NCBI RefSeq assembly: GCF_947495665.1
Contig: NZ_CANLZV010000003.1
Coordinates: 124,001-188,000, forward strand
Direction of reading: 5' to 3'
Source of the DNA: an uncultured Sunxiuqinia sp.
Lineage (GTDB): Bacteria; Bacteroidota; Bacteroidia; Bacteroidales; Prolixibacteraceae
DNA length: 64,000 nucleotides
The position numbers were made by a program, and so were the translations under genes. Shown one piece after another: positions 22,676 through 57,818 of this stretch. Each line of letters opens with the position of its first letter. The first letter of the stretch is position 1. A model generated the notes under the pieces. It was not told the origin of the DNA and ran no database searches. It saw nothing but the letters and a program-made list of their open reading frames with translations.

Positions 22676-22806
22676 TGTCATTTTGAAGTCGAGTATTAAT
22701 GTTCTTTATACAATGACATTATCTTAAGTTTTTCATTATAAGCTATTGTTTGTATTCGAAGCATGTATTAGTTGTTGCTTCGAATTATTATTTTAAAATT
22801 AATAAT

Positions 22807-25332
22807 ATGAAGATAAGTAAAGTCAAGTTGATGGCATTTATTTGCCTTTTGTTTTTTTATTTTAGTACACTGGGACAAATAAATTCCTCAATATTTAAAG
22901 TTGATAATGCAACTTATCTCAACAAACATGATATTGTTTATAGAACTCCAGCTTATGAAGGTTTTGAAGGTTTCCCTATAGGTAATGGTGACCTTGGAGG
23001 AATGGTGTGGAACCATAAAAATGGGATAGAAATCCAAATCAATAAAAACGATCTGTTTGACCAGCCCAATGCAGAAGCCGGCGCCACCTTGCGTGGAGGA
23101 GCTCGTCTTAATATTGATTTTGGGACGCCCACTTTTGAGTGGTTATACCTCAACGATTTTGACGGGCGACTATCGTTAAAAGATGCCGAAGCTACTTTTA
23201 ATGTCAAAACACCATTTCAGGAAAATAACATCCAGACATGGGTTTCTGCCAATAAAAATGTTTGGTTTATCCGGATAAGTTCGAAGAATATAAACAACGG
23301 TAAAACGAAAATTCGTACTTCGCTCGAACGCTGGGGAAGCAGGGCTTTTCCCGGCTGGTATGGCGGCTATACAAAAAATTCGGAAATTGGTTTAGGAAAT
23401 ACACATTCAAAAATTATTGGAACCGACATTGTATTGGAAGAAAGTCTTAGTGGGCTAAATTTTTCAGTTGCATGCCGTTTGATTGGGGATGGTGTTGAAG
23501 CACAAAAGATAAGTTCAAACAGGGTCGAACTTGAAACCAAGGTTAATAGGGAGCATGACATTCTTTTGATGGTTTCACTGGTCACTTCCAATGAATCGGA
23601 AACACCAACGCAAACCGCAATTGAGTTGTTAAACGAGGCTGAGAATAATGGAATTGAAAATGAGAAGAACCTTCACTCGCAATGGTGGAAGGATTTCTGG
23701 AACCAGTCCTTTGTGCATATTGGAGATGATTACCTTGAAAATATTTATTACCTCCGCAGGTATTTGATGGCAAGTAGTTCAAGGGGGAAATATCCGGTTG
23801 TTTTTAATGGCGGGCTATGGAACTGGAACCATGATGTGAGAAATTGGGTAACACCTCACCATTGGAACACACAGCAACAATACTGGGGATTGGCACCGCA
23901 GAATGATTGCGAATTAATGCTTCCGTATTTAAACACTTATTACCGGATTATGCCGGAAGCGGAAAAACATGCCAAAATGAGGGGCGCAGATAATTCCATT
24001 CTTTGGAGTGAGGCACATGATTTTTTTGGTAGTATGACTTTCTGGAACAGAGGGGATATGATTAACAATTTCACCCCTGCCAGTCAGATTGCCGGATTCT
24101 TTTGGGAATACTTTCAATATACCTGTGATACTGTATTTTTAGAAAAGAAAGCCTATCCTTTTTTGAAGAAAGCTGCTGAATTTTATGTACAGACCTTACA
24201 ATGGGATGAATCAAAAAAAGAGTTTTTTATATCTCCTTCGCAGCCGTATGAGAGTCCACGTTCTAACAATCTGAAGAATACGATTACAGACCGTAATATG
24301 ATCATTTCAACGATGACTGCCTGCATTTCTTCTGCAAAAATACTGGAAAGAGACAATAAAAAAGTTAAAGAATGGCAGCATATCATTGACCATTTGTGGC
24401 CTATTCCTTTCCGGGAAGAAGAAGGGATTGGAGAAATTATGCAACTGGGCTATAACCAGGATGGATCGGTTTATCCTAAAAAAGAAGACTATGGAGACTG
24501 GACCAATCATTTCAGCGCTAACACTTCGTTGGTCTTTCCTGCAAATATTATTGGCATTGACCAAAAAGGGAGCCGGGAGTACAATGCTGCTGCCAATGTT
24601 GTAAAGAGCCATTCACCTTCGAAAAATGCGATATCACCCGATCCGATAGTGGCGGCCCGCTTGGGTTTAGGCGAAGTTGCTTTGGAGCGGATAACCAACC
24701 AGGTTCGACGTTTGCAACACTTTCCACAGGGCCTTTTTTATAACATTGACCATTGGTACTATTTGTCTCTGTATGCAGACTCCGTTAAAACACCGGATAT
24801 TACCACTCAGCGTGACTATCTTTATGATGAGCGGTGTAAATACGAAAAGGGGCATCCTGCAAAGCCGTTTATCCAATGTGGATTAGAACCAATGAGCATA
24901 TTTACTTCTACAATCAATGAGATGTTATTGCAAAGTAATGAAGGTAAAATCCGGGTTTTCCCAGCGGTTCCGGAAGGTTGGAATCCGGCATTTAAACTTC
25001 GGGCAAGGGGAGCATTTATCGTTTCGTCGGAAATGAAAGAAGGAATTGTTGCAGCGGTTCAAATTGAAAGTATAAAGGGAAGTACTTGTAAATTGGTTAA
25101 TCCTTGGCCAGGTCAAAGGGTTGATGTATTGAATGCGAATGATGAATCTGTAGTTAAGGTAAAAAAGGAAAAGGATGGTCTCATTGTATTTGACACAAAA
25201 GCATTGGGAAAATACATTATTGTGATGAAAGGAACAAAGCCATCAATGAATAGAACAGTATTCAAAAGTATTCGAAATGATAAACCAAAATATTTTAAAG
25301 AAGCGGTACTTGGGAAAGAGCGGAATTTTTAA
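22807..25332 (+). CDS. Divergent GH95-like (alpha/alpha)6-barrel glycoside hydrolase
   Basis: Secreted enzyme of 841 residues when started at the Met that begins a good signal peptide (MKISKVK to TLGQ); the longer frame from 22750 has no such start. The N-terminal beta-sandwich carries FPIGNGDLGGMVW, the GH95/DUF5703-type opening motif. The barrel contains H-W-N-T-Q (H352, N354, Q356) where GH95 fucosidases have H-x-N-x-N, and I find no equivalent of the FQ-D-GN aspartate. It is therefore not a standard GH95 fucosidase and may belong to a related uncharacterised family. It opens the enzyme block of the PUL. A near copy of its last codons and 3' spacer recurs at 27244-27300. Confidence 0.75.
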   Translation: MKISKVKLMAFICLLFFYFSTLGQINSSIFKVDNATYLNKHDIVYRTPAYEGFEGFPIGNGDLGGMVWNHKNGIEIQINKNDLFDQPNAEAGATLRGGARLNIDFGTPTFEWLYLNDFDGRLSLKDAEATFNVKTPFQENNIQTWVSANKNVWFIRISSKNINNGKTKIRTSLERWGSRAFPGWYGGYTKNSEIGLGNTHSKIIGTDIVLEESLSGLNFSVACRLIGDGVEAQKISSNRVELETKVNREHDILLMVSLVTSNESETPTQTAIELLNEAENNGIENEKNLHSQWWKDFWNQSFVHIGDDYLENIYYLRRYLMASSSRGKYPVVFNGGLWNWNHDVRNWVTPHHWNTQQQYWGLAPQNDCELMLPYLNTYYRIMPEAEKHAKMRGADNSILWSEAHDFFGSMTFWNRGDMINNFTPASQIAGFFWEYFQYTCDTVFLEKKAYPFLKKAAEFYVQTLQWDESKKEFFISPSQPYESPRSNNLKNTITDRNMIISTMTACISSAKILERDNKKVKEWQHIIDHLWPIPFREEEGIGEIMQLGYNQDGSVYPKKEDYGDWTNHFSANTSLVFPANIIGIDQKGSREYNAAANVVKSHSPSKNAISPDPIVAARLGLGEVALERITNQVRRLQHFPQGLFYNIDHWYYLSLYADSVKTPDITTQRDYLYDERCKYEKGHPAKPFIQCGLEPMSIFTSTINEMLLQSNEGKIRVFPAVPEGWNPAFKLRARGAFIVSSEMKEGIVAAVQIESIKGSTCKLVNPWPGQRVDVLNANDESVVKVKKEKDGLIVFDTKALGKYIIVMKGTKPSMNRTVFKSIRNDKPKYFKEAVLGKERNF

Positions 25333-25358: not shown

Positions 25359-27116
25359 ATGGATAAAAAAAGAATATTAGGAATTCATTATAAGGCAATA
25401 TTAATGCTGTGTACATTTATCATCTGGGGCGGAGTAACGATAAATGCCCAAACCAAAAACAGATTGGCCACACCATCCCCCGAACAAATCTTGTGGCAGC
25501 AAATGGAACAAACCATGTTTATCTGCCTCGACCCATGTACCTGGGAAGGAATTGAACAAGGCAATCACACCTATCCAATTGAAAAAATCAATCCTTCGAA
25601 GTTAGATGTCAATCAGTGGCTGGATGCAGCAGAAGCTTTTGGAGCTAAAATGGTTTTATTTGTAGCAAAACACTCCAGTGGCTTTTGTTGGTGGAATACT
25701 GAAACTACCGATTACGGTATAAGAAATACTGCGTATAAAAATGGTAAGGGAGATGTACTTAAAGAATTATCAGATGCTTGCTGGCAACGAGGAATTAAAT
25801 TAGGGATTTACGTTTATCCCGGCGACCTAACCTGGGGAGCTTACCTGGGCGGAGCAGGACGAACCAAAGACCCCGCAAAACAAGAAGGATACAATAAAGT
25901 GCTTCGCCAGCAATGGGAAGAAGTTTTATCGCGTTACGGCGAGGCAACCGAAATATGGTTTGATGGGAACTGTATTATCCCCATCGATGATATTAAAGAA
26001 AAATATGCCCCCAATGCTATTGTTTTCGGTAGTTCTATGGCAAATATCCGTTGGGTAGGAAATGAGCGTGGCTATGCCCCGTATCCGGCATGGAATACCG
26101 TTAAAAAGGAAGATGGAGGAACCGGTTCTGCAACTGCTGCGCATAGCGACCCCAATGGGGATATGTGGATGCCCCTTGAGGTAAACACCACCTTAAAAGA
26201 CCACTATTGGTTCTGGTCTCCGGAAAACGAAAAACACTTAAAATCATTAGACCAGCTTGTGGAGAACTATTACAAATCTGTTGGTAGAGGTGGGGTGTTT
26301 TTACTGAACTCAGCACCCGACACATCTGGTTTGATCCCTGCTGCCGATATGAAATTGTATCAGCAATTGGGAGATGAGATTCGCAGAAGGTTTTCACAAA
26401 GTATAAAAGAGACTTCAGGAAAAGGTAAAACTGTAGAACTTGACCTTGGAAAAGTAACTGAAATAGACCACGTAATAACCATGGAGGATATTGCCTTTGG
26501 TGAACGCATAAGGAAATATACCCTTGAAGGTTCCAAAGACGGAAACACTTGGTTTGAAATCGTTAAAGGAATTTCAGTAGGACATAAACGCATTGATAAA
26601 TTTAAACCCGTAAAAGTCCGTAAAATACGTTTCTGTGCCAACGAATATGCAGCGTCACCTGTGATAAAGAAACTGGCTGTTTACATGGTTGGTGATAAAA
26701 AGAACTACGACAGGCTAAAAAGCGATAAAGATGATTTTGGTTATTCATGGGAGGCTGGTCAGTCGAAAGAATATATCGATTTGGTGGAAGTTGGAAAAGC
26801 TTCAGGTTTTGCTGAAACGACAAACGAGCGACAGTTTACCGTTGATTTATCTAAAATAATTGACCGCCCCGGACAATATGAACTGTTCGTTGCAAAGAAA
26901 GTAAATGGTACTACAAATAAACCATCGGAGGCTGCAATTCTTTTGGAGGGAAACGAGACTCCAGGTTTTTGCAAAATCGACTGGGTTTTTGGACGTATGG
27001 AATTAAACATTACCGCGCACCCAACCATGAACGAAAATTCAATTAAAGTAATTTTTAATCTGGCTGATAAAGTTCAGGATGAAAAGGTATTCCTGAGAAA
27101 AGTAATTTTTAATTAA
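25359..27116 (+). CDS. GH29 alpha-L-fucosidase
   Basis: A 585-residue secreted (signal peptide to TINAQ) retaining fucosidase. The (beta/alpha)8 barrel shows AKMVLFVAKHSSGFCWW (about 96-112) and the nucleophile motif EIWFDGN with Asp202; the C-terminal part (about 350-585) holds beta-sandwich domains, including a discoidin-like segment (VTEIDHVITMEDIAFGERIRKY). The KHSSGFCWW variant, rather than the KHHDGF of the fucosidase at 28518-30503, is shared with the paralog at 33026-34696, so these two form one subgroup. It follows the GH95-like gene by 26 bp. Confidence 0.92.
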   Translation: MDKKRILGIHYKAILMLCTFIIWGGVTINAQTKNRLATPSPEQILWQQMEQTMFICLDPCTWEGIEQGNHTYPIEKINPSKLDVNQWLDAAEAFGAKMVLFVAKHSSGFCWWNTETTDYGIRNTAYKNGKGDVLKELSDACWQRGIKLGIYVYPGDLTWGAYLGGAGRTKDPAKQEGYNKVLRQQWEEVLSRYGEATEIWFDGNCIIPIDDIKEKYAPNAIVFGSSMANIRWVGNERGYAPYPAWNTVKKEDGGTGSATAAHSDPNGDMWMPLEVNTTLKDHYWFWSPENEKHLKSLDQLVENYYKSVGRGGVFLLNSAPDTSGLIPAADMKLYQQLGDEIRRRFSQSIKETSGKGKTVELDLGKVTEIDHVITMEDIAFGERIRKYTLEGSKDGNTWFEIVKGISVGHKRIDKFKPVKVRKIRFCANEYAASPVIKKLAVYMVGDKKNYDRLKSDKDDFGYSWEAGQSKEYIDLVEVGKASGFAETTNERQFTVDLSKIIDRPGQYELFVAKKVNGTTNKPSEAAILLEGNETPGFCKIDWVFGRMELNITAHPTMNENSIKVIFNLADKVQDEKVFLRKVIFN

Positions 27117-28517: not shown

Positions 28518-30503
28518 ATGAAATATATATTAGCAGTTGGCTTTATGGTTTTTCCCCTTTTTCCCTATGCTCAGGAAACAGGCATTAAGTACGTGGAAAA
28601 TACATACTACGAAGGTACATCGGTGTTAATACCGGAGAATGTGACGAAAGAAGAAATGATTAAGCTGGCGGCTGCAGTAAGGCCATCTGCCAAACAACTT
28701 CGCTACCAGGAATATGGAACTATGGGATTTATTCACTTTAACCTGAACACCTTTACCGGAAGACAGTGGGGAACAGGAGTGGAAGACCTAAGCATTTTTA
28801 ATCCAAAGAGTGTGAATGTTGACCAATGGATGGAAGCCTTTGTCGCAGCTGGTGTAAAGTCGGTAATTATGGTGTGCAAACATCACGATGGGTTCCGGTT
28901 GTGGCCCAGTTCTTATCACTCCAGAAATATTTCTAAAACACCTTATAAAGAAGGTAAGGGAGATTTGGTAAAAGAAGTGTCGGAAGCAGCCCAGAGGCAC
29001 GGACTTCGTTTTTGCGTGTACTATTCTCCGTGGGACAAACAGGAACCATACGGGACGCCTGCTTATAACGATTTGATGGTGGATGAATTGACTGAGCTGT
29101 TGACCAATTACGGCTCAGTGGATTTAGTTTGGTTTGATGGTGCAGGTATCAGTACTAAAGTTAGTGGTGTTGAAATGGATTTTGACTGGGACAGGATACA
29201 TGCTACCATTCATAAGTTACAACCTTCGGCTATTATTTCAGGTGTTGGCCCTGATGTGCGTTGGGTTGGAAATGAAGCCGGTCGGGGGCGCACAACAGAA
29301 TGGTGTGTTCAAGGGGTTGTTTATGATACAAAAGATTTCCCGGGTGCACATGCCGGTGTACCTACAATGGCACCTGAATTAGGTGATATTAGTCAGTTAA
29401 TGACATTAAAAGGAATTGATGATATGACCGGAGATACTTCTAAACTCAGGCAATTGACCTGGATGCCGGCAAGGGGTGGTTTACCTGTTCATACCAAATG
29501 GTTCTGGAATCCATTGGAGAAGGTGCGTTCGTTAAACTATCTTACTGAGTCATTTTTTAGTACCATTGGCTGTAATTCCGGAGTAATACTGAATATGTCT
29601 CCTGATACTACCGGCTTGGTTCCAGAAGAAGATATGGCAGTAATGAAGGCTTTTGGTGAATGGAGAAGAGAGTTGATGGGACATAATTACGCTTTGGGCG
29701 CCAGGGCCGAAACGACTCCAACTGGTGAGGGCGGTTACAATGTAAGTTATATGTTTGACGATGATATACGTACCGGCTGGGTAGCTCCTGAAGGGATTGA
29801 AACAGCAGAAATAGTGATTAATCTATATGGAGAACAAACTTTCGATGTTGTTTATCTTCAAGAAATGGTGGCTGACTTCGGACAGCGAATTGAAGCGTTT
29901 GCAGTGGATGCCATGGTAGATGGCAGGTGGAAGGAGTTGGTAAAAAATACTACTGTTGGTTTTAGACGAATTCAAAGAGTAAAATCAACCACTACAGATA
30001 AGATTCGAATTCGGATTCTTTCTTCTCGTTTGTCGCCAAGTTTGGCAACTGTAAAACTATTGAAAGTACCTGAGTTAATAGAGCCTAACAAAATAAATAA
30101 GAAAAAAGAGTTATCCAGGGATAACTGGAAAACAGATGCTGCCATTAAGGATGGCGACCTGAATACCTGTTGGACAGGAGAATTGAAAGATGGAAAGCCT
30201 GCTTACATTGATATCGATTTAGGAGAAGAAACAACCTTGTCTGTGTTTACTTACATTCCTCCTCAGGGAAGTCCGGAAGAGCTTGGTCGGGTAGAACGAT
30301 TTGAAGTGTATGTTGGCAATGATCCGGAAAATATCAACTTTAAAGTGGGTGAAGGTAAGAATGAAAACGTGGATAATAATCCTGTGCCACAATCCGTAAC
30401 CCTCCACAAACTGGCAAAAGGCCGATATTTGCGGTATGTGATGCTTTCTGCAACACGAGGGCAGAACGTGGTGAGAATAGCAGAAATAAAAACTGAATCT
30501 TAA
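28518..30503 (+). CDS. GH29 alpha-L-fucosidase with C-terminal discoidin (CBM32-like) domain
   Basis: A 661-residue secreted enzyme (signal peptide to PYAQ). The barrel carries GTMGFIHFN, VKSVIMVCKHHDGFRLWPS (KHHDGF, about 111-116) and the nucleophile motif LVWFDGAG with Asp197, followed by GPDVRWVGNEAG. The C-terminal 200 residues form two beta-sandwich stretches, the last resembling an F5/8 type C domain (TCWTGE, IDIDLGEETTLSVFTYIP, RYLRYVM). The long N-terminal part, KHHDGF motif and C-terminal domain fit the alpha-1,3/4-fucosidase-type subfamily better than the other two GH29 proteins here; that is inference. It starts 14 bp after the propeller gene. Confidence 0.93.
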   Translation: MKYILAVGFMVFPLFPYAQETGIKYVENTYYEGTSVLIPENVTKEEMIKLAAAVRPSAKQLRYQEYGTMGFIHFNLNTFTGRQWGTGVEDLSIFNPKSVNVDQWMEAFVAAGVKSVIMVCKHHDGFRLWPSSYHSRNISKTPYKEGKGDLVKEVSEAAQRHGLRFCVYYSPWDKQEPYGTPAYNDLMVDELTELLTNYGSVDLVWFDGAGISTKVSGVEMDFDWDRIHATIHKLQPSAIISGVGPDVRWVGNEAGRGRTTEWCVQGVVYDTKDFPGAHAGVPTMAPELGDISQLMTLKGIDDMTGDTSKLRQLTWMPARGGLPVHTKWFWNPLEKVRSLNYLTESFFSTIGCNSGVILNMSPDTTGLVPEEDMAVMKAFGEWRRELMGHNYALGARAETTPTGEGGYNVSYMFDDDIRTGWVAPEGIETAEIVINLYGEQTFDVVYLQEMVADFGQRIEAFAVDAMVDGRWKELVKNTTVGFRRIQRVKSTTTDKIRIRILSSRLSPSLATVKLLKVPELIEPNKINKKKELSRDNWKTDAAIKDGDLNTCWTGELKDGKPAYIDIDLGEETTLSVFTYIPPQGSPEELGRVERFEVYVGNDPENINFKVGEGKNENVDNNPVPQSVTLHKLAKGRYLRYVMLSATRGQNVVRIAEIKTES

Positions 30504-30527: not shown

Positions 30528-32927
30528 ATGAAAATTAAAGGACACTTATCCTCCTTGTTCATCATGCTGGTTCTTTTTTCATGTACCAACGAAAAGAAAG
30601 AAACAAGCACTCAAGCTCTAAAACTCTGGTATAACCAACCGGCTGATGCTACTGTGAAAGACTCTCCCGATGGATGGAAAGACGATCCGGAGTGGCTGAA
30701 AGCCCTGCCTTTGGGCAATGGCTCGTTAGGCGTCATGGTTTTTGGCGATGTAAACAAGGAGCGCATTCAGTTAAATGAAGAAAGCATGTGGTCGGGTAGT
30801 GTTGATGTCAATGACAATCCCGTGGCAAAGGACGCTCAGGCAAAAATGCGCCAATTGCTTTTTGAAGGGAAGTATAAAGAAGCCACTGAGTTAACAAACA
30901 AGACCCAAATTTGCGTCGGAAAAGGTTCCGGGCATGGCAATGGTGCGGAAGTTCCATTTGGTTGTTTCCAGACACTCGGTGATCTGTGGATTGAAAACGG
31001 AAAAAATGCTGGCTATGAAAATTATTACCGGGAACTGGATATGAATGATGCCGTTGTCCGTGTAAGGTATTCACAGGAGGGGGTAAGTTTTCAACGGGAA
31101 ATATTTACAAGCCAACCGGATCAGGCGATGGTTGCCCGTTTTACTGCAGATAAAAAGGGTCAGATTTCTTTCAAATGTTCAATGAGCCGCCCTGAAAGGT
31201 TTAAAACATATTCTGAAAATGACCAGTTGGTAATGTCTGGCGCTCTTTCTGATGGTAAGGGAGGAAATGGCTTGCAATACATGGCTCGGTTAAAAGCAGT
31301 CAGCAAAAATGGTTCAGTAAGCTATACCGATTCAACAGTAATTGTTGAAAATGCCGATGAAGTTGTGCTTTTTCTTACAGCATCAACAGATTATGTGTTG
31401 AGTTATCCTGAATATAAAGGAAGGGAGTACGAGAAGATAACAAACGAAAATATTGAACGTGCTATAAGTAGGCCATATCAGGAGTTACTGGACACTCACA
31501 AGAAAGAATACCAGGCCTATTTTAACCGGGTAAGTATTGATTTAACACCAGAAAATAGCATTGATATTCCAACAGACCAACGTGTAATCGATTTTAAGCA
31601 AACAAAATCAGATCCTCACTTAGTTGAGTTGTTATTTCAATACGGGCGTTATCTTTTAATTTCTTCGTCCAGACCAGGAACATTGCCGGCTAATTTACAA
31701 GGAATTTGGGCCAATAAAATCCAGACACCATGGAACGGAGATTACCATACCGATGTAAATGTGGAAATGAACTATTGGCCGGCAGAAGTAACCAACCTGT
31801 CGGAAATGCATTTGCCGTTATTTGATTTAATTGAATCTTTGGTTAAACCAGGTGAGAAAACGGCACAGATACAATACGGGAACAAAGGTTGGGTGATTCA
31901 CCCAATTACAAATGTATGGGGATACACTTCGCCTGGCGAAATGGCTAGTTGGGGAATGCACACAGGAGGAAGTGCCTGGATTTGTTCTCACATAGGAGAA
32001 CACTATTTGTTTACTGGCGATAAAGATTTTTTGAGAAGAATGTACCCTGTTTTGAAGGGAGCGGTAGAGTTTTATCTCGATTGGCTGGTTGCTGACCCGA
32101 ATACAGGTTTGTTGGTTTCCGGTCCGGCAGTTTCGCCAGAGAATAGTTTTATTGCACCTGATGGGAGCCGAAGCCAGATAAGCATGGGGCCAGCTCATGA
32201 CCAACAGGTAATATGGCAGCTTTTTTCCGATTTTATTTTTGCATCAGAAGAACTCGAACTCGAAAATAAAACCGTTCAGGAAATAAAACAAGCCATCGAT
32301 ATACTTGCCGGTCCGCAGATTGGTTCCGATGGCCGTTTAATGGAATGGATTGAAGAATTTCCGGAGGTGGAGCCAGGACACCGTCATATATCTCACCTTT
32401 TTGCCTTGCACCCGGGCAGACAAATTAGTTTGGAGAATACACCTGAATTAGCAAAAGCTGCACAAAAATCGCTGGATTACAGGATTGCCAACGGAGGGGG
32501 ACATACCGGATGGAGCGCAGCCTGGCTGATTAGTCAATATGCTCGCCTGAACCAGGCAAAGAAAGCAATAGAAAGCCTGAACACTGTTTTGGCGAAAAGT
32601 ACTTCTCCCAATTTATTTGGACTGCATCCTCCGTTTCAGATGGATGCCAACTTCGGTGCTACCGCTGGAATTGCAGAAATGTTAATCCAAAGTCATGATG
32701 GAGCGGTTCATTTGCTGCCAGCCTTACCATCCGAATGGCCAATAGGGGAAGTAAACGGATTAAAAGCCCAAGGTGGTTTTGAAGTTGATATAAAATGGCA
32801 CAATGGCGAGTTGGTGTCTGCCCATATCTTGTCGAAGTGGCAAAACAAGGTTATTGTAAAGTATAAAGGAGCAAAGGAGATTCTTCATCTGAATACAAAT
32901 GAAAAAACGGTTTTTGAGGTCAAATAA
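30528..32927 (+). CDS. GH95 alpha-L-fucosidase-family lipoprotein (H-x-D-x-N active site)
   Basis: A 799-residue lipoprotein (lipobox LFSC). N-terminal beta-sandwich with [14 protein letters not shown] and [10 protein letters not shown], then the (alpha/alpha)6 barrel. The motif before NYWPAE reads H407-T-D409-V-N411, so the first asparagine of the usual N-x-N base-relay pair is Asp. The general acid is expected at E538 (VSPEN) and the second acidic residue at D706 (FQMDANFG). GH95 enzymes invert alpha-1,2-fucosyl or alpha-L-galactosyl linkages. The Asp substitution may change substrate or pKa of the relay; activity should be tested, not assumed. Confidence 0.9.
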
Positions 32928-33025: not shown

Positions 33026-34696
33026 ATGATTCGATTTTTTTTGTTTGGAGTTTTTCTTTTATCTCCGATATTTTTTGTGTTCGGGCAAAGTCTTCCCAAA
33101 CCTACAGATGTACAATACAAATGGCAAGAACAGGAGCGACTAATGTTTCTGCATTTTGCACCAACAACCTGGTCGGAGGTGGAACAGAATGACAATTCTG
33201 TATCATTAGACAGGATTAATCCTACAAAACTGAATACCGATCAGTGGTGCGAAGCAGCGTTGGCTTTTGGCGCAAAACAAATCATATTTGTTGCTAAACA
33301 TTCGGGTGGTTTTTGTTGGTGGCAAACCGAAACTACCAATTACGGAATAAAAGATACACCCTACAAAAATGGCAGAGGCGATGTGTTGAAGGAAATCGCT
33401 GAGTCGTGCAAAAAATATGGCTTGAACCTTGGGGTTTATATCTATCCCGGAGATCGTACCTGGGGAGCAATGATTGGAAGTGGAGGAAAAACTAAAGATC
33501 CGGCAAAGCAGGAAGCGTACAACAAGGTTTTTAGAACACAACTTACTGAAGTGCTTTCAAACTACGGAGAGATGCTGGAAGTTTGGTTCGATGGCAGTTG
33601 TGTTATTGATGTTTCGGATATAATGGAGCAATATGCCGCAAATTCGGTTGTATTTCAGGGGCCACATGCTACATTGCGCTGGCCTGGTACCGAATCGGGA
33701 AAGCTGTTTTACCCCGCATGGAATACCGTCAGAAGTGAAGACCTGAAAACAGGGGTTTCTACTCAAATTCATGGTACTCCGAATGGAGATGTATGGGCCC
33801 CGCTTGAAACAAACACAACGCTATACGACCATTATTGGTTTTGGTCGCCCGAGAAAGTAAAAAAACGGAAAACGGTTGATGAGTTGATGGATTGCTATTA
33901 TAAGTCGGTTGGATATGGAAGTGTATTCTTGTTAAATGCTTCTCCTGATACCACCGGCTTAATTGTTGAAGGAGACATGAAACGCTATAAAGAATTTGGC
34001 GACGAAATCAATCGTCGTTTTTCCAATCCCATTGCTGAAATCAATTCTCAAAAGGGAAATGAGCTTGTATTGCAGTTGGATAAACCGACCCGCATTAACC
34101 ATGCTGTTGTTATGGAAGATTATCGCGAAGGGGAGCGTATCCGTGAATATCGTATTGAAGGTTATTCGGATGGAAAATGGCTTGAGCTAACCAAAGGAAT
34201 TTCAGTTGGCCGTAAAAAGATTGATTATTTCGATGATGTTGAAGTTGAGCGACTTCGTTTGGTGGTTACGAAGGCAGCTGCGGAACCTCTTATCCGGTCA
34301 TTTTCCGTTTATCATGTCAGCAACTTTATTCCTCCCAAAAAACAAAGCATGCATGTTTGGTCGAATCCACAAACGGTTGTTTCGTGGAAAAAAACGGATG
34401 TGAACAATAACAAACTTGAATTGAAAATTAATCTCGGTGATAAAATAAATGTTCCGGGCCAATATGTTTTAACCGTTTTGCCGGAAATGAAACAAAATGT
34501 AAGGGTGGAAAATGCTGCCATGTTTTACGATGGAAATAAAGCCATGCAAGAGTTTGTGCAGATTAAAGACAATAAAATACAAATCAACCAGACGGCTCAA
34601 ATTACAGGTGAAGCTGATTTATATGTTGAATTTATCATTCATATTGAGCAAGCATGCAATGGAGTAGTTGAGTTTAAACCACTGCAAATAAATTAA
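33026..34696 (+). CDS. GH29 alpha-L-fucosidase
   Basis: A 556-residue secreted enzyme (signal peptide to FVFGQ) closely related to the fucosidase at 25359-27116: shared KHSGGFCWWQTET, YPGDRTWGAM and the nucleophile motif EVWFDGS (Asp189), plus the same C-terminal sandwich region containing ISVGRKKIDYF. Two such close paralogs in one PUL suggest two different fucosyl linkages or two steps in breakdown. It is preceded by 98 bp, the longest gap in this part of the operon, and followed after 9 bp by the methyltransferase-like gene. Confidence 0.92.
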   Translation: MIRFFLFGVFLLSPIFFVFGQSLPKPTDVQYKWQEQERLMFLHFAPTTWSEVEQNDNSVSLDRINPTKLNTDQWCEAALAFGAKQIIFVAKHSGGFCWWQTETTNYGIKDTPYKNGRGDVLKEIAESCKKYGLNLGVYIYPGDRTWGAMIGSGGKTKDPAKQEAYNKVFRTQLTEVLSNYGEMLEVWFDGSCVIDVSDIMEQYAANSVVFQGPHATLRWPGTESGKLFYPAWNTVRSEDLKTGVSTQIHGTPNGDVWAPLETNTTLYDHYWFWSPEKVKKRKTVDELMDCYYKSVGYGSVFLLNASPDTTGLIVEGDMKRYKEFGDEINRRFSNPIAEINSQKGNELVLQLDKPTRINHAVVMEDYREGERIREYRIEGYSDGKWLELTKGISVGRKKIDYFDDVEVERLRLVVTKAAAEPLIRSFSVYHVSNFIPPKKQSMHVWSNPQTVVSWKKTDVNNNKLELKINLGDKINVPGQYVLTVLPEMKQNVRVENAAMFYDGNKAMQEFVQIKDNKIQINQTAQITGEADLYVEFIIHIEQACNGVVEFKPLQIN

Positions 34697-34705
34697 GTTA
34701 TTAGT

Positions 34706-35869
34706 ATGGAACGATCAAATAAATGTTTGGGAAAATTAACCCGGATGAATATGGCCTTAAGTCATCAAGAGCCAGATCGTGTGCCTATTAGCGATTTCTT
34801 TTGGGGAAGTTTTGTAAAGCGTTGGCGAAAAGAATTAAACCTGCCTGATGATGCAAGTCCATACACTTATTACGATTTGGATTGGATTGTAACCATGCCA
34901 AATATGGACCCGAAAATACAATCGTTCGAAACAATAAAAGAAGATGGTTTGGAGGTAATCGTTAAAACCGGGTTCCGAACAACCATGCGGAAAAAATTTG
35001 ACATTCCTATGCCTGAATTCATTTCGTGGGAAGTTGATACCATTAAAAAACTGGAAAAATTTGAATTTGATGATCCATATGACAAGAGAAGATATTTTGA
35101 AGCTGGCGACAATCAAATCGCCGGAGTTGGAGATGGCTTTGAGCGTAACTCACCGGCCTGGATCGATACGGTAAAAAAGTTACATCCGGATTTCCCGGTT
35201 TATGGAAGTATAATAGAATGCTCAGAGTGTTTAACCAGATTATTGGGTCAGGAAAACACACTCTTCTGGATGGGAATGTACTCTGATCAGTTCGGGGTGC
35301 AAATAAACCGGATTGGGCAATTTTACCTCGATTGTATGAAAGCTCAGATTAAAGCTGCTGATGGTTTACTCGACGGAATGGTAATATGGGGAGACGTGGC
35401 ATACAAACAAACCATGTTGTTCGACCCGGAATACTGGAGAATGTATTTCAAACCTTGGGTAAAAGCAATGATAGAAGAGTGCCATAAAAATAACCTGCCC
35501 GTTATTTATCACGGATGTGGAAATGTAGAGCTGATTTTTGAAGATTTTATTGAAATGGGACTGGATGCTTATAATCCACTTGAAGTAAAAGCAAACATGG
35601 ATGCAGTGGAGCTAAAAAAGAAACATGGCAATAAAATAGGCTACTGTGGCAATAATAATATCCAGGTTTGGGAAACAGATGATAAAGAGCAAATTCGTAA
35701 AGAAGTGTTATTTAAATTGAATGCAGCCAAAGGTGGTGGATATATTTTTCAGTCCGACCATTCGGTGTCAAGTGATGTGTCAGGTCAAAGCTACGATTAC
35801 ATTGTGAAGCTGGTGCGAGAACATGGAAAATATCCTTTGCACTTAAAGGAATTTGATGAAACTATTTGA
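34706..35869 (+). CDS. Uroporphyrinogen decarboxylase-family protein, MtaA/CmuA-like (putative zinc/cobalamin methyltransferase)
   Basis: A 387-residue protein with no signal peptide, hence cytoplasmic, in the URO-D superfamily TIM barrel (EPDRVPISDFFWG at the start; AKGGGYIFQSDHSVSSDV near the end). It carries H269-x-C271 (YHGCGN) and C314 (GYCGNN), the H-x-C-Xn-C zinc pattern of the methyltransferases MtaA, MtbA and CmuA, which true HemE lacks. It is the only obviously intracellular enzyme in the locus and sits 9 bp after a GH29 gene. Possible role: O-demethylation of a methylated sugar released from the glycan. No corrinoid protein or reductive activator is encoded nearby, so a partner must be supplied from elsewhere or the chemistry is different. 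Confidence 0.8.
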   Translation: MERSNKCLGKLTRMNMALSHQEPDRVPISDFFWGSFVKRWRKELNLPDDASPYTYYDLDWIVTMPNMDPKIQSFETIKEDGLEVIVKTGFRTTMRKKFDIPMPEFISWEVDTIKKLEKFEFDDPYDKRRYFEAGDNQIAGVGDGFERNSPAWIDTVKKLHPDFPVYGSIIECSECLTRLLGQENTLFWMGMYSDQFGVQINRIGQFYLDCMKAQIKAADGLLDGMVIWGDVAYKQTMLFDPEYWRMYFKPWVKAMIEECHKNNLPVIYHGCGNVELIFEDFIEMGLDAYNPLEVKANMDAVELKKKHGNKIGYCGNNNIQVWETDDKEQIRKEVLFKLNAAKGGGYIFQSDHSVSSDVSGQSYDYIVKLVREHGKYPLHLKEFDETI

Positions 35870-36061
35870 ATCATTTGTAATTCGGAAGTCAATGAATAGT
35901 AAGTTAAATAAACCTGGAAAGTATTAAAGGATACTAAGAGTCATATCCCATGATGTGGCTTTATATAATATTAAAAGTAACACGTGTAATATTCAGGGCT
36001 ACACAAATTAAACATAATGAATAAAACATAACAATAGTGTATGTATAAATATATTCATCGA

Positions 36062-40826
<4,765 letters not shown>

Positions 40827-40846: not shown

Positions 40847-43195
40847 ATGAAAAACGATACATTTAGATTGATTTTGTTCTTTTCAATAGCATCAATGTTC
40901 TCTTGCTCATCCAAAAGAACAAAAGATAAACATCTGGAGCTATGGTACGATAAACCGGCTAATGAATGGATGACCGAAGCTTTGCCTTTTGGAAATGGTT
41001 ACATGGGGGCTATGTTTTTTGGTGGAGTTGAAAAAGAACAGATTCAGTTTACGGAAGGTACACTATGGAGCGGTGGCCCGCGCTCTAATACGGATTATAA
41101 TTATGGCAATCGGCCTGAAGCCTGGAAAAACCTTGCAAAAGTACGAAGTTTACTTGATGAAGGAAAAACAAACGAAGCGCACGGGTTGGCCAGCCGGGAA
41201 CTAACAGGCGTAATTCATAAAAAGAAAGAGGGGGCCATGTTTGGTGATTATGGCGCCCAGCAAACGATGGGCGATCTTTTTGTTGAGATTAAACATACAG
41301 GCACGCCGGTCAATTACAAACGTGAACTTGATTTGACCAGCGGAGAAGGACGAGTTTCATATGAAATGGATGGAGAAAGCTACTCCCGGACTTATTTAGG
41401 CAGCTATCCCGCAAAAGCCATGGCCTATCGTTTCGAGAGTTCTGCGAAAACAAATTACTCAATTGCGTATAGTTCACCCCACAAAAAGAATAAGGAAGCT
41501 TTTTTCAACTCTGTCTATTCTTTTCAAGGTGAAGTTGAAGATAACAGAATGCAGTTTGAAACTTGTTTAAAGGTTGATACCGATGGGGATGTGATTTTTG
41601 AAAATGAAAAAATAAATGTATCTGGGGCCAGATACCTGAACCTTTATCATGTAGCTGCAACAGATTATACCTTGCAATTCCCGGAATACACAGGGAACGA
41701 TTTTCTGGCCAACAATAAAATCGCTTTACAGAAGTTGGAGCAAAAGTCTTTTGATGAAATAAGAACAATACACCAGAAAGATTATAAAAATTTATTTGAA
41801 CGTGTTGAGTTGAATCTGGGAGAAAACTCCCGCGACAATATTCCTGCCGATCGGCGTTTAACAGAATATGCTAACGGAATGCCCGATCCAGGGTTGGAAC
41901 AAATTTATTTTCAGTACAGCCGTTATCTCATGATAGCCGCCTCGCGCCCAGGAACCATGCCTTTAAATTTACAGGGAAAATGGAACAACAGCACCAATCC
42001 ACCCTGGGCCTGCGATTACCACATGAACATTAACCAGCAAATGTTGTACTGGCCTGCAGAGGTTGCCAATTTAGACGAGTGCCACCTTCCGCTATTTGAT
42101 TATATGGAAAGTTTAGTTGAACCCGGGAAAATTTCTGCAAAGGAATTTTTTAATTCACGTGGCTGGATTGTCAATACAATGAATAACCCATTTGGCTTTA
42201 CAGCACCGGGGTGGGGATTTCCATGGGGATTTTTCCCCGGTGGTGCAGCCTGGTTGTGCCAGCACGTTTGGGAACACTACGATTTTACACGTGATAAACA
42301 GTTTTTGGAAGAAACTGGATTTCCGCTAATGAAAGAAGCCGCTCTCTTTTGGCTAGACTATCTGGTTGAAGATGAAAACGGATATTTGGTATCGTCACCA
42401 TCTTATTCGCCCGAACACGGTGGAATATCGCTTGGAGCATCAATGGATCATCAAATAGCATGGGATTTATTAAACAATTGCATTGAAGCTTGTAATGTTT
42501 TAGGTATTGACGATGAATTTAAACGACAGGCAATAAAAGTAAGAGATAAGATTTTACCGCCAACTATTGGAAGCTGGGGACAGTTGCAAGAGTGGAAAAA
42601 GGATGTTGACGACCCAAATAACAAGCATCGGCATGTTTCACATTTGTACGCTCTTCATCCCGGGAAACAAATTACAACCAAAAACACACCTGACCTGTCA
42701 GAGGCTGCAAAAGTGAGTCTGAATGCTCGTGGCGATAGTGGAACTGGCTGGTCGCTGGCCTGGAAAGTGAATTTTTGGGCAAGATTAAAAGATGGCGATC
42801 GTGCTTATAAACTGTTTAAACGTTTACTACGTCCGACCGGGCAAAAGGGAACAGATATGATGAGCGGGGGCGGTAGCTATTCAAACCTGCTTTGTGCTCA
42901 TCCCCCGTTTCAGTTAGATGGGAATATGGGTGGGTGTGCTGGAATTGCTGAGATGCTTTTGCAGTCGCACACTGGAACTTTAGAATTGCTCCCTGCCTTA
43001 CCAACTGCATGGAAAAATGGCCATGTTAAAGGATTGAAAGCACGTGGCGGTTTTATAGTAGATATGGACTGGAGGGATGGAGTATTGGTTTGGGCAAAAA
43101 TAACAGGGAATCCAGGAGTAATGTCTAAGTATAGGCTTGAGAACGATGTCGTAGAATTTGAGATCCCTGAAAATGGAAATATTATTATTAATTAA
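40847..43195 (+). CDS. GH95 alpha-L-fucosidase, canonical active site
   Basis: A 782-residue lipoprotein (lipobox MFSC). Opening motif LPFGNGYMGAMFFGG and QFTEGTLWSGG. It has the canonical H392-M-N394-I-N396 motif before the LYWPAE segment, the acid E523 in YSPEHG, and D691 in FQLDGNMGG, matching the residues reported for the Bifidobacterium 1,2-alpha-fucosidase AfcA. Of the GH95 proteins here this one is the best candidate for a true alpha-1,2-L-fucosidase. It follows the GH2 gene by 20 bp. Confidence 0.92.
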   Translation: MKNDTFRLILFFSIASMFSCSSKRTKDKHLELWYDKPANEWMTEALPFGNGYMGAMFFGGVEKEQIQFTEGTLWSGGPRSNTDYNYGNRPEAWKNLAKVRSLLDEGKTNEAHGLASRELTGVIHKKKEGAMFGDYGAQQTMGDLFVEIKHTGTPVNYKRELDLTSGEGRVSYEMDGESYSRTYLGSYPAKAMAYRFESSAKTNYSIAYSSPHKKNKEAFFNSVYSFQGEVEDNRMQFETCLKVDTDGDVIFENEKINVSGARYLNLYHVAATDYTLQFPEYTGNDFLANNKIALQKLEQKSFDEIRTIHQKDYKNLFERVELNLGENSRDNIPADRRLTEYANGMPDPGLEQIYFQYSRYLMIAASRPGTMPLNLQGKWNNSTNPPWACDYHMNINQQMLYWPAEVANLDECHLPLFDYMESLVEPGKISAKEFFNSRGWIVNTMNNPFGFTAPGWGFPWGFFPGGAAWLCQHVWEHYDFTRDKQFLEETGFPLMKEAALFWLDYLVEDENGYLVSSPSYSPEHGGISLGASMDHQIAWDLLNNCIEACNVLGIDDEFKRQAIKVRDKILPPTIGSWGQLQEWKKDVDDPNNKHRHVSHLYALHPGKQITTKNTPDLSEAAKVSLNARGDSGTGWSLAWKVNFWARLKDGDRAYKLFKRLLRPTGQKGTDMMSGGGSYSNLLCAHPPFQLDGNMGGCAGIAEMLLQSHTGTLELLPALPTAWKNGHVKGLKARGGFIVDMDWRDGVLVWAKITGNPGVMSKYRLENDVVEFEIPENGNIIIN

Positions 43196-43210: not shown

Positions 43211-44074
43211 ATGAGACTGACAATTCGATTAGTTCTGTTAGCCATTGCATTAAATGCAGGCTCTTTCTTACAGGCTCAAAATAAAGTTCTAATAATTGGT
43301 ATTGATGGCTGTCGACCTGATGGTTTTCTGGCTGCAAAGACTCCTAATTTAGATAAGATATGGGAAAACGGAGCTTATTCCTTTTCTGCCCAAACAGATC
43401 CTATCAGTAGCAGTGGAATATGTTGGACTGCAATGTTAACAGGTGTCTGGCATGAAAAACATAATGTGCTTACTAACGAGTATAAGGATCCAAATATAGG
43501 GGAGTATCCGCATTTTTATCGTAGAGTGAAAGAGCAGAAACCGGATTTGAAGCTTTATTCAATTGTTAATTGGTCTCCAATCCATAAAATACTACAGAAA
43601 GGAGATGCTGATATTGTTAATTACCTTTTGTCGGATGAGAAAGTAACGCAAAGAGTAGTCGATTTACTTCAAAATGATAATCCTGATGCTGTATTTGTTC
43701 AATTGGATGAGGTAGACGGAGCAGGACATAGGTACGATTATGTTCCCGAAAGTTCAGAATATTTGAAAGCGATAGAAAAAGCTGATGAGTTAGTTGGAAG
43801 CATGATAACGGCCATTAAGAGAAGAGAACTTATAAAAAAAGAGAATTGGCTGATCTTGGTGTCAACAGATCATGGAGGAAGTAAAAAGGGACACGGAAAG
43901 GATATTCCTGAGCATACAACAATTTTCTTTATTGCAAATGGGAACGATGTCCAAAAAGGTAAGATCAAACAACAAGTAAATGTAGTTGATGTTGCAGTGA
44001 CAGCGTTAGAACATTTAGGGATTGAGAGCGAAGAAGATTGGAACTTGGATGGGAAGGTAATTGGTATCAGGTAA
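43211..44074 (+). CDS. Alkaline-phosphatase-superfamily hydrolase (NPP/phosphodiesterase-like)
   Basis: A 287-residue secreted protein (signal peptide to LQAQ). Metal-ligand pattern of the superfamily: D32 (IIGIDGCRPD), D166 and H173 (QLDEVDGAGH), D220-H221 (STDHGG) and H235 (IPEHT). The nucleophile region reads DPISSSGICWTAMLTG (S66-S68); the C/S-x-P-S-R motif needed for formylglycine in sulfatases is absent, so it should not be a sulfatase. It likely cleaves a phosphoester or phosphodiester, perhaps a substituent of the glycan. It is shorter than most family members. Confidence 0.8.
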   Translation: MRLTIRLVLLAIALNAGSFLQAQNKVLIIGIDGCRPDGFLAAKTPNLDKIWENGAYSFSAQTDPISSSGICWTAMLTGVWHEKHNVLTNEYKDPNIGEYPHFYRRVKEQKPDLKLYSIVNWSPIHKILQKGDADIVNYLLSDEKVTQRVVDLLQNDNPDAVFVQLDEVDGAGHRYDYVPESSEYLKAIEKADELVGSMITAIKRRELIKKENWLILVSTDHGGSKKGHGKDIPEHTTIFFIANGNDVQKGKIKQQVNVVDVAVTALEHLGIESEEDWNLDGKVIGIR

Positions 44075-44181: not shown

Positions 44182-46647
44182 ATGAAGAACACATTACAAA
44201 ATATGCATGGGGAAAGATTTGAGAGAGAGTTCAATGGAGAGCTATTTAAAATAAATAAATTAGAACAAATAAAAGCTTTATTGTTATGTTTATGTGTCAC
44301 GTTCTTAAATATTTCTTGTTTAAGAGAACCGAATGTTAAAACTAATCGTGCAGGAATTTGGTTTGATAGTCCCGCTCAAAACTGGAACGAAGCCATCCCT
44401 ATTGGTAACGGAACCCTTGGCGGGATGGTGTATGGTGGAGTAGAATCGGATACTATAAAAATTAATGAAGAAACACTTTGGTCGGGCGGTCCGCGCGATT
44501 TACAGAATTACGAAGCCATTAAACATTTGCCTAAGATTCGTCAGTTACTCAATGACGATAAAACCAAAGAGGCAGAAAGATTGATTAACTCAACAATGCT
44601 TGGCGAATACAATGAATGTTACATGCCCATGGGCGATTTGGTAATAAACACAAATTCACAAGAAAAAGCAGAAAATTATATTCGTCAACTTGATTTAGAA
44701 ACAGGTTTGGTAAATATTAACTATTCGATTGGTGGCGTTCAGTACAAAAAGGAAGTATTTTCTTCTTACCCTGACAAAGTAATTGTTGTTAAATTCACAT
44801 CCAGCAAAAAAGGACAACTGAATTTCTCTACATCACTAACAAGTTTGTTAAACCATCAGGTAAGTGTTGATGGCAATCAGGTAATTTTAAAGGGAAATGC
44901 ACCCAAACACGCTTACCCTCATTATCTTGGTGAAAAGCCACCGGTGTACGAAGAAGGACATGGAATGCGTTTCCAAATGAATTTACTGGTTCGTAACAAA
45001 GGAGGGCAGGTTAATAAAAATAACAAGGAATTAGTAGTGGAAAATGCTGATGAAGTTGATTTGATTTTAACGGCAGCCACAAGCTTTAATGGTTTCGACA
45101 AAAACTCGGTTACCCAAGGGAAAGATTACGAATCGATTTCAAATCAAAAAATTTCAGAATTGCGGAATGTGGATTATGCTGAACTTAAGGAGAATCATAT
45201 CAGCGATTATTCTGAATTGTATAGTAGGGTAAAACTTAATTTGGGTGAAAGTGAGGCCGCAAACCTACCCATAAATCAACGCATTAAAAAATACAAACCA
45301 GGAACCGACCCTGGCTTAACTACTCTATATTTTAATTTTGGACGTTACTTGTTAATTTCCAGCTCCAGACAGGCAAAACATGCTCAGCCTGCACATTTAC
45401 AGGGAATATGGAGTAGATTGTTAAAACCTGCATGGAGTGCAAACTGGACACTTAATTGTAATGCCCAAATTAATTACTGGGGCGTAGAAATTACCAACCT
45501 CTCAGAACTTCACTTACCATTAATTGAGCTTACTAAAGAGCTTACGGTTGATGGTGCACGTACAGCTAAAAATATGTATGGCGCAGGTGGTTGGATTGCA
45601 CATCATAATGCCGATATCTGGCGAACAACCTCACCAGTTGGCGGAAACGGATTATGGGCTATCTACCAAGTGGGTAGTGCCTGGCTTTGTCACCATCTTT
45701 GGGAACATTATGAATTTACGCTTGATAAGAAATACCTAACAGAAGTGTATCCCGTATTAAAAGGGGCAGCTATGTTTTATATGGATAATTTGCAACGAGA
45801 CCAAGATGGCTTTTGGGTTACTAATCCTTCGGAATCTTTTGAAAACCATTTCCGGAAACCTGATGGTACAATAGGATGGGCTTGTGTTGGTGCAACTCAA
45901 GACATGCAAATTATTCGAGATCTTTTTCAGAATTGTAGACAGGCTATTAGAGTACTTGAGAATGACTCTGAATTTGATGTGAAATTGGAAGGTTATTTAA
46001 AGGAATTACTGCCTATGAGAATAAGCCCGACTACCGGACGCTTGCAAGAATGGAAAGACGATTGGGAATCAGCATATGCAAATAGTGGGCAGTTAGCTCA
46101 TGGTTGGGGGCTGGCAGTGGGAAGCCAGATTACACCACGTGGAACACCCGAATTGGCAGAAGCGTTTATTAAAACACTGGAACACCGAAAACCATGGGAA
46201 CAAAATGAATGTGGAAGCTGGACTGGCAGTTTTGCCGCAAAGTTTTGGGCACGATTAGAAAACGGAGAAATGCTTCAAAAAGTTTTTGATAACCATTTTA
46301 GCTGGGCTGTGTTTCCAAACCTGACCTCTAATTTTCGTGGTTTATGGGAAATTGATGGAAATCTTGGGATTATGGCATCTATTGCCGAAATGTTGTTACA
46401 AAGCCATTCTGGAGAAATTGTTTTATTGCCAGCATTGCCAAGAAAATATCCAACAGGAGAAGTAAAGGGATTATGTGCTCGAAATGGATTTGAAGTGGAT
46501 ATAAAATGGGAGGATAATGAGCTAACGAAAGCTGTTATTTTTTCAAAGCAAGGAGAAAACTGCAAGGTGAGGTATAAGGAAAAGATTATTGAATTAGATA
46601 TTAAAAAAGGTGGAAGCCACAGCCTATTTCTAGATGATTATAAATAA
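44182..46647 (+). CDS. GH95-family enzyme with T-x-N-x-N active site (putative alpha-L-galactosidase)
   Basis: An 821-residue lipoprotein-like GH95 protein. The N-terminus is odd: about 28 polar residues precede the hydrophobic stretch (ALLLCLCVTFLNISC), and no internal Met gives a normal signal peptide, so a non-ATG start further in is possible. Motifs: IPIGNGTLGGMVYGG, INEETLWSGG; T423-L-N425-C-N427 before INYWG, so the usual histidine is threonine; acid candidate E554 (SFEN instead of SPE); D725 in WEIDGNLG. As I recall, His-to-Thr at this site goes with alpha-L-galactosidase activity in a characterised Bacteroides GH95, so L-galactose release is a reasonable hypothesis. Confidence 0.88.
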   Translation: MKNTLQNMHGERFEREFNGELFKINKLEQIKALLLCLCVTFLNISCLREPNVKTNRAGIWFDSPAQNWNEAIPIGNGTLGGMVYGGVESDTIKINEETLWSGGPRDLQNYEAIKHLPKIRQLLNDDKTKEAERLINSTMLGEYNECYMPMGDLVINTNSQEKAENYIRQLDLETGLVNINYSIGGVQYKKEVFSSYPDKVIVVKFTSSKKGQLNFSTSLTSLLNHQVSVDGNQVILKGNAPKHAYPHYLGEKPPVYEEGHGMRFQMNLLVRNKGGQVNKNNKELVVENADEVDLILTAATSFNGFDKNSVTQGKDYESISNQKISELRNVDYAELKENHISDYSELYSRVKLNLGESEAANLPINQRIKKYKPGTDPGLTTLYFNFGRYLLISSSRQAKHAQPAHLQGIWSRLLKPAWSANWTLNCNAQINYWGVEITNLSELHLPLIELTKELTVDGARTAKNMYGAGGWIAHHNADIWRTTSPVGGNGLWAIYQVGSAWLCHHLWEHYEFTLDKKYLTEVYPVLKGAAMFYMDNLQRDQDGFWVTNPSESFENHFRKPDGTIGWACVGATQDMQIIRDLFQNCRQAIRVLENDSEFDVKLEGYLKELLPMRISPTTGRLQEWKDDWESAYANSGQLAHGWGLAVGSQITPRGTPELAEAFIKTLEHRKPWEQNECGSWTGSFAAKFWARLENGEMLQKVFDNHFSWAVFPNLTSNFRGLWEIDGNLGIMASIAEMLLQSHSGEIVLLPALPRKYPTGEVKGLCARNGFEVDIKWEDNELTKAVIFSKQGENCKVRYKEKIIELDIKKGGSHSLFLDDYK

Positions 46648-56459: not shown

Positions 56460-56547
56460 GTTTGTATAATATCTTTCAGTGTAAAATTATAGTATTTTTT
56501 GATTTTGCAAAACGATTTCTTTGTTTTTAATTCTTACTAAAAAAACC

Positions 56548-57816: not shown

Positions 57817-57818
57817 TC

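Follow-up and report, generated by a model that had tools for sequence, protein, structure and literature searches.

Why a gene of the URO-D superfamily should stand among fucosidase genes is the question raised by P0001, a protein encoded within a PUL in the 64,000-nucleotide stretch of DNA analysed here (the window; C3:124001-188000 of a 4.73 Mb genome that is 99.95% complete). Many glycans from algae, plants, and animals carry O-methyl groups, which have to come off before ordinary sugar catabolism can proceed. We considered that P0001 could be a zinc- and corrinoid-dependent O-demethylase whose substrates are methylated 6-deoxy sugars, methyl-fucose being the probable one, and on the sequence evidence set out below we place the probability of this reading at roughly 0.58.

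The gene is an intact open reading frame, separated by 9 nt from the stop codon of the upstream GH29 gene (34694-34696). The PUL around it contains three GH29 genes, five GH95 or GH95-like genes, one GH20 gene, two GH2 genes, and a SusC/SusD pair (Table 1), in agreement with the fucosidase PUL described in the initial annotation. No hydrophobic or signal-like stretch was seen by eye at the N terminus, and a cytoplasmic location, as previously proposed, is a fair reading of the sequence. Near the start of the PUL, a ribulokinase gene (12703-14382) passed the NCBIfam equivalog cut-off, and a type I phosphodiesterase/alkaline-phosphatase-like protein is encoded between two of the GH95 genes (43211-44074). 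Farther downstream, two ORFs (52975-53646 and 54244-54906) match positions 17-224 and 439-627 of the 969-position GH123 N-terminal model; from these separate parts of the model, the GH123 gene looks broken.

Table 1. Features of the window and of the cassette that follows it. Positions are those of the window, except where prefixed C3, the scale on which the window is C3:124001-188000.
Feature	Position	Strand	Remark
SusC	17009-20371	+	PUL
SusD	20384-22126	+	PUL
DUF5703/GH95-like enzyme	22750-25332	+	
GH29 alpha-L-fucosidase	25359-27116	+	
GH29 alpha-L-fucosidase	28518-30503	+	
GH95 fucosidase-type enzyme	30528-32927	+	
GH29 alpha-L-fucosidase	33026-34696	+	9 nt upstream of P0001
URO-D-superfamily gene P0001	34706-35869	+	Intact ORF, 387 aa; proposed corrinoid-dependent O-demethylase
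GH20	36041-37654	+	Downstream of P0001
GH95 fucosidase-type enzyme	40847-43195	+	
GH95 fucosidase-type enzyme	44182-46647	+	
GH95 fucosidase-type enzyme	49886-52306	+	
AraC-type regulator	55554-56459	-	Divergent from the run leading into the corrinoid cassette
GlcNAc 2-epimerase-like (56521), GH38 (57819), sugar porter (61364)	56521-62716	+	
GH76-like	62759-64000	+	23.1 bits (Pfam cut-off 25.9, just missed); cut by window end
MtaA-like URO-D, 341 aa	C3:188177-189202	+	
Corrinoid protein	C3:189679-190347		C3 cassette
URO-D with C-terminal thioredoxin domain	C3:190351-191700		C3 cassette
CobW GTPase	C3:191697-192590		C3 cassette
MetH-type activation-domain protein	C3:192577-193272		C3 cassette; Met_synt_B12 36.8 bits (cut-off 25)

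Pfam placed P0001 in the URO-D family (PF01208) with 61.2 bits against a gathering cut-off of 23.9, the match covering residues 156-373 only. The superfamily assignment was thereby upheld, but the earlier MtaA/CmuA label proved too narrow, because the corresponding model (TIGR01463) gave 22 bits, below its curated cut-off of 235.4; two homologues scored 29.3 and 31.5 bits. NCBIfam returned weak matches to corrinoid methyltransferases, plus a single match to a methionine synthase model. Structural comparison of the AlphaFold2 model (pLDDT 93.4) revealed that the best 26 rows were all UROD and MtaA (4ay7/4ay8), with TM-scores by query of 0.61-0.67, and the predicted fold is that of a URO-D TIM-barrel, resembling UROD and MtaA about equally. 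A phmmer search of the PDB with the single P0001 sequence gave weak UROD matches, and a profile search brought in MtaA (E = 2.1e-5).

When the alignment of the family (78 sequences) was examined, H269, C271, C314, D351, and H352 were all found to be invariant. The H269-x-C271 motif aligned with the HIC of MtaA (4ay7), whose H-x-C residues we take to be zinc ligands, and with the HIC of the 341-residue MtaA-like protein of the same genome. This part of the H-x-C-Xn-C motif first described for the protein was confirmed; its second Cys was not, since C314 aligned with an Ile and not with the third ligand position. Profile alignment with the MtaA-like proteins of the genome put H352 on the third Cys of the 341-residue protein, which retains H-x-C...C, so that His352 stands where the S-methyltransferases have the last Cys of their His-Cys-Cys site. 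The same His, together with H-x-C, was observed in the family of a 421-residue URO-D protein, while in a URO-D/thioredoxin protein Phe replaces the first zinc-ligand His. According to the available part of PMC10418091, S-methyltransferases have a His-Cys-Cys site and O-methyltransferases swap Cys for carboxylates or non-ligands, and the aligned non-Cys third position of P0001 is in line with this replacement. The rule as worded in that part of the paper does not name His as the substitute, and the invariant Asp D351 adjoins H352. A putative zinc ion may therefore be held by H269, C271, and either H352 or D351.

A homologue scan with one genome per species found 119 genomes encoding relatives, of which the best 80 of 119 were retained (59-92% identical). 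By title, these 80 belong to Bacteroidetes/Bacteroidia, Planctomycetes, Verrucomicrobia, Kiritimatiellae, Lentisphaerae, and Hydrogenedentes, and further to Acidobacteria, Ignavibacteriae, Spirochaetes, Anaerolineae/Ardenticatenia, Armatimonadetes, and Aminicenantes. Within this set, rhaM was found near the homologue in 47 of the 80 loci; on the same strand it lay within 2 kb in 38 and within 500 bp in 31, compared with a chance expectation of 0.08 of 80 loci for the 2 kb distance (based on 114 rhaM matches in 51 genomes, or 2.2 per genome). RhaT was present in 33/80 loci, GH29 in 21/80, GH95 in 11/80, and a close relative (at least 60% identical) of the 421-residue URO-D protein in 11/80. The full order RhaT - Uro421 - GH29 - rhaM - P0001 occurred in five loci (L030, L033, L035, L036, and L040), and none of rhaM, RhaT, GH29, or GH95 was found in 19/80, in a set in which 13/80 loci have a flank under 6 kb. 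Antisense ORFs from the neighbour clustering were set aside as artefacts, and where loci are GC-rich, naive ORF calling may overlook true neighbours or create false ones.

Co-occurrence with fucosidase loci, as foreseen in the initial annotation, was thus observed; however, fucosidases are only part of the picture, because rhaM exceeds both GH29 and GH95 as a partner. Carboxylicivirga sediminis (L027) has the GH29 - P0001 - GH20 order with the same 9 nt gap and GH29 genes that are 90-93% identical, and in genome G014 the homologue is surrounded, as judged by eye, by genes of sugar ABC transporters, with no GH29 noticed in the part inspected. Pfam searches on 90 unassigned neighbours gave, among the 25 of 109 families listed, DUF5703 as the commonest (12/90), followed by GH95 (7/90), with two L-fucose isomerases and one GH106 rhamnosidase; GH78 was covered only as part of this listing.

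These neighbourhoods bear directly on the substrate. A corrinoid O-demethylase acting on methylated L-rhamnose, another sugar of the rhaM/RhaT type, or a methylated non-sugar instead of methyl-fucose would agree with rhaM and RhaT being commoner neighbours than GH29 and with the GH106 gene. Set against it are the GH29, GH95, and DUF5703/GH95-like neighbours, the two L-fucose isomerases compared with a single GH106 among the families listed, two neighbouring mutarotases that scored 52-57 bits against a rhamnose-mutarotase cut-off of 99.6, and the richness in fucosidases of the PUL in the window. We consider this substrate assignment unlikely, although it deserves serious attention, and methyl-fucose is retained as the probable substrate.

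The initial annotation had described the corrinoid partners as missing from the window. This was an edge effect, because the window ends just before a URO-D/corrinoid cassette that begins at the 177th base past its end, the P0001 gene ending 28.3 kb earlier. The same-strand run of epimerase, GH38, sugar porter, and GH76-like genes continues past the window into the MtaA-like URO-D gene and this cassette; the whole run, from which the AraC-type regulator diverges, perhaps serves the demethylation of a methylated mannose. The genome search for a corrinoid protein that had been proposed found two cassettes. Six URO-D matches were present in the genome. Of the B12-binding matches, four exceeded the cut-off: two are small corrinoid proteins encoded separately, each with B12-binding_2 and B12-binding domains, one is a 735-residue frame, and one is a 1227-residue frame that also bears pterin and homocysteine modules and is MetH. 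The second cassette (C2) has the order RhaT, 421-residue URO-D, rhaM, corrinoid protein, URO-D/thioredoxin protein, CobW, and activation domain, and an operon of C. sediminis (L141/L112) follows this order, its rhaM being a more distant one. The four proteins common to the two cassettes are 76, 77, 59, and 57% identical, the last value being that of the activation-domain proteins. The URO-D/thioredoxin protein (L018:5352-6701 and L019:14048-15397) carries a CxxC motif and, judged by similarity, is also encoded in several further cassettes of Bacteroidota.

The companion search for a RamA-like activase gave no RACo/RamA-type match in the genome, which has the MetH-type activation domain instead. 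Pterin-binding proteins were limited to a 300-residue frame (folP) and the MetH frame, leaving no dedicated folate methylase in the genome, and a folate methylase was dropped as the acceptor enzyme. Searches against Rfam at the gathering score gave no riboswitch in the window or in the gaps of roughly 480-500 bases before the corrinoid genes (L018 and L019). The gap in the C2 copy (L019) contains rhaM; for the approximately 480 bases between the MtaA-like URO-D and corrinoid genes (L018:4203-4680), no coding explanation was found.

We then compared the distribution of P0001 with that of the corrinoid protein. Among the genomes of 50 of the 80 loci (L027-L076), 44 encode a separate corrinoid protein. 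The loci of the six others (G403, G405, G417, G420, G429, and G444) are titled MAG, like most of the 80, and incompleteness of the MAGs may or may not be the reason for these misses. In a phylum sample, 41/395 genomes had a corrinoid match at E<=1e-30, the source genome and G014 included; it held two P0001 homologues, both in genomes with the corrinoid protein. Because two homologues were too few for a test, a sample of the order was used, in which 5/295 genomes encode P0001. A separate corrinoid protein was found in all five, compared with 37 of the 290 others (p = 4.7e-5). This count rests on 42 separate proteins out of an order tally of 46/295, as G447, G462, G553, and G652 match only inside frames of 778-1024 residues; with all 46 matches the value is p = 7.6e-5. 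The five P0001 genomes include the source genome, and two of them (G674 and G702) share contig coordinates with two of the 50 (G400 and G424). Within the family of the source genome, three genomes have the corrinoid protein without P0001, and such a nested pattern would be expected were P0001 one among several enzymes that supply a common carrier. Part of the co-occurrence may stem from relatedness and from the anaerobic, glycan-eating lifestyle that these bacteria have in common.

This association argues against a URO-D-fold enzyme of 6-deoxy-sugar breakdown, such as a lyase or isomerase, that would have the metal site in common with the methyltransferases and be no methyltransferase itself. 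Such an enzyme would fit the distance of the P0001 sequence from characterised corrinoid methyltransferases, and the strong predominance of sugar genes over corrinoid genes in the homologue loci, where a corrinoid match was obtained in 2/80 (an intact adjoining gene in L065, a partial ORF in L074). It is nevertheless improbable in view of the corrinoid protein in 44/50 and 5/5 homologue-bearing genomes, the direct corrinoid/homocysteine-methyltransferase run in L065, and the H-x-C kept at the methyltransferase zinc position.

The genes next to the homologue in L065 (Verrucomicrobia; a Verrucomicrobium) bear on the methyl acceptor. There, the homologue (66%) precedes a corrinoid ORF, which has a TTG start 56 bases and an ATG start 101 bases after the homologue; 15 bases beyond this ORF stands a homocysteine S-methyltransferase gene that is cut by the contig end. 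In L074, the corrinoid ORF is partial, with 95 residues, and is found 3.4 kb downstream of the homologue. A homocysteine methyltransferase gene was located within 6 kb of the corrinoid gene in 12/50 homologue-bearing genomes and was present in 7 of 20 cassette stretches (L140, L144, L146, L147, L148, L150, and L151); one of 270-360 residues was found anywhere in 37/50 genomes and in none of the other 13. From these arrangements, the methyl group in the relatives probably passes to homocysteine, yielding methionine. No separate homocysteine methyltransferase was found in the source genome, where the homocysteine domain occurs only in MetH, and the last step there may fall to either of two candidates, the URO-D/thioredoxin protein or MetH.

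P0001 might itself act on the acceptor side, as a methyltransferase II that moves the corrinoid methyl group to a thiol in the way MtaA does with coenzyme M. Membership of the MtaA superfamily and the H-x-C motif are compatible with this role, which we nonetheless judge highly improbable: the third ligand position is not Cys while the 341-residue MtaA-like protein of the same genome keeps H-x-C...C, the homologues lie among sugar genes, and the run in L065 already includes a homocysteine methyltransferase downstream. A HemE paralogue in haem synthesis, despite the common fold and Pfam family, was rejected as barely credible, as the initial annotation had anticipated, since the hemE model (TIGR01464, cut-off 302.95 bits) gave no match to P0001 at E<=1, a genuine hemE is encoded elsewhere in the genome (334.6 bits), and the distribution is patchy (5/295 genomes of the order).

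The gene, the fold class, the conserved site, the partner genes, the co-occurrence, and the linkage are directly established; from them we infer the zinc, the methyl transfer, the substrate, and the acceptor. Within the URO-D superfamily, P0001 would act as a methyltransferase I, on the substrate side. The fucosidases of the PUL would free O-methylated fucose or a closely related 6-deoxy-L-hexose for import. In the cytoplasm, zinc on H269, C271, and H352 or D351 would polarise the ether oxygen, the methyl group would pass to Co(I) on a separate corrinoid protein, one of the two from the cassettes elsewhere in the genome, and the free sugar would go to catabolism. The CobW GTPase is perhaps a metal chaperone, and the MetH-type activation domain may take over the role of RamA, with reactivation driven by AdoMet. 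In the relatives, the arrangement would amount to a split methionine synthase with the folate module replaced by URO-D demethylases. The two cassettes, the rhaM linkage, the corrinoid co-occurrence, the L065 run, and the invariant H-x-C were counted in favour of this O-demethylase. Counted against it were the single locus of 80 with an intact adjoining corrinoid gene, the 6/50 genomes without the corrinoid protein, the 13/50 without a homocysteine methyltransferase of 270-360 residues, the 19/80 loci without sugar markers, the possible effect of lifestyle on the co-occurrence, a His at the third ligand position where the published rule names carboxylates or non-ligands, and, in the source genome, the lack of a RACo/RamA match and of an extra pterin-binding protein or separate homocysteine methyltransferase. 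The demethylation of an imported O-methyl sugar that was originally suggested is, as a predicted activity, well supported by its context (rhaM, RhaT, GH29, the cassettes, co-occurrence, and L065), with rhaM as a stronger partner than the fucosidases first emphasised.

A broader and more tentative proposal extends this scheme. In L040, the RhaT - Uro421 - GH29 - rhaM - P0001 set is preceded at 3.7 kb by an MtaA-like gene (68%) that comes after a GH38 gene. This pair, together with the position of the C3 cassette after the GH38/GH76-like run, hints that each methylated sugar has a URO-D enzyme of its own. It is conceivable, though we would not yet favour it, that many phyla share a modular, O2-independent methyl-sugar pathway in which interchangeable, sugar-specific URO-D demethylases, one corrinoid carrier, and a split methionine synthase lead to methionine. 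P0001 would then serve fucose, the 421-residue protein the RhaT/rhaM sugar, and the 341-residue MtaA-like protein the mannose-type operon with the GH38 and GH76-like genes; the demethylases would take the place of the folate module, and glycan methyl groups would end as methionine via homocysteine.

If the proposed O-demethylase activity is correct, an O2-independent, B12-dependent route would account for how anaerobic glycan degraders use methylated sugars, genes named only uroporphyrinogen decarboxylase-like would gain a function, and polysaccharide breakdown would be linked with methionine and vitamin B12 economy. The candidate enzyme spans Bacteroidota, Planctomycetota, Verrucomicrobiota, and other phyla. 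Terms for methyl-fucose appear in papers dealing with rhamnogalacturonan II, Botryococcus exopolysaccharide, and Caenorhabditis N-glycans. In the open-access literature, with most subscription journals outside the search, no report of corrinoid demethylation of sugars or of methyl-fucose was found. As far as these sources extend, the parts have precedents in corrinoid URO-D methyltransferases and modular methionine synthase, and the sugar-directed version is the element not found there.

Among these precedents, the closest are the URO-D corrinoid methyltransferases covered in the available part of PMC10418091, namely MtaA/MtbA, the type 1 mlp clusters, and the aromatic O-demethylases OdmB/VdmB, the last pair likened by description. 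P0001 resembles them in its predicted URO-D TIM-barrel and H-x-C, in a genome that encodes a corrinoid protein together with a gene of the reactivation type, in URO-D paralogues that adjoin the corrinoid gene, and in having no dedicated folate methylase. It differs in scoring 22 bits to MtaA/CmuA, in a third position that is His and not Cys, in its sugar-gene neighbours, and in the MetH-type activation domain that its genome uses in place of a Ram/RACE activase. From HemE, with which it has fold and Pfam family in common, it differs by the conserved H-x-C and the silent hemE model.

In marine Alphaproteobacteria, one corrinoid protein serves both a modular methionine synthase and the demethylation of glycine betaine (PMC12478193, available in part). 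That system likewise combines a separate corrinoid protein, a homocysteine methyltransferase, and an exchangeable methyl-donor module, tying demethylation to methionine synthesis. As described in that part, a pfam06253 methyltransferase serves there as the donor enzyme, and a pterin-binding protein is also involved. The donor module proposed here is instead a URO-D protein, with a sugar as presumed methyl donor, and the pterin-binding proteins found in the genome were limited to folP and MetH. In the open-access literature covered, the route found for taking a methyl group off a sugar is oxidative, namely the demethylation of 6-O-methyl-D-galactose by a cytochrome P450 (PMC10033563, likewise available in part). 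This reaction and the route proposed for P0001 both demethylate an O-methyl sugar that derives from a glycan. The P450 does so by oxidation, using oxygen and giving formaldehyde, whereas in the proposed route the methyl group would be transferred intact to cobalt.
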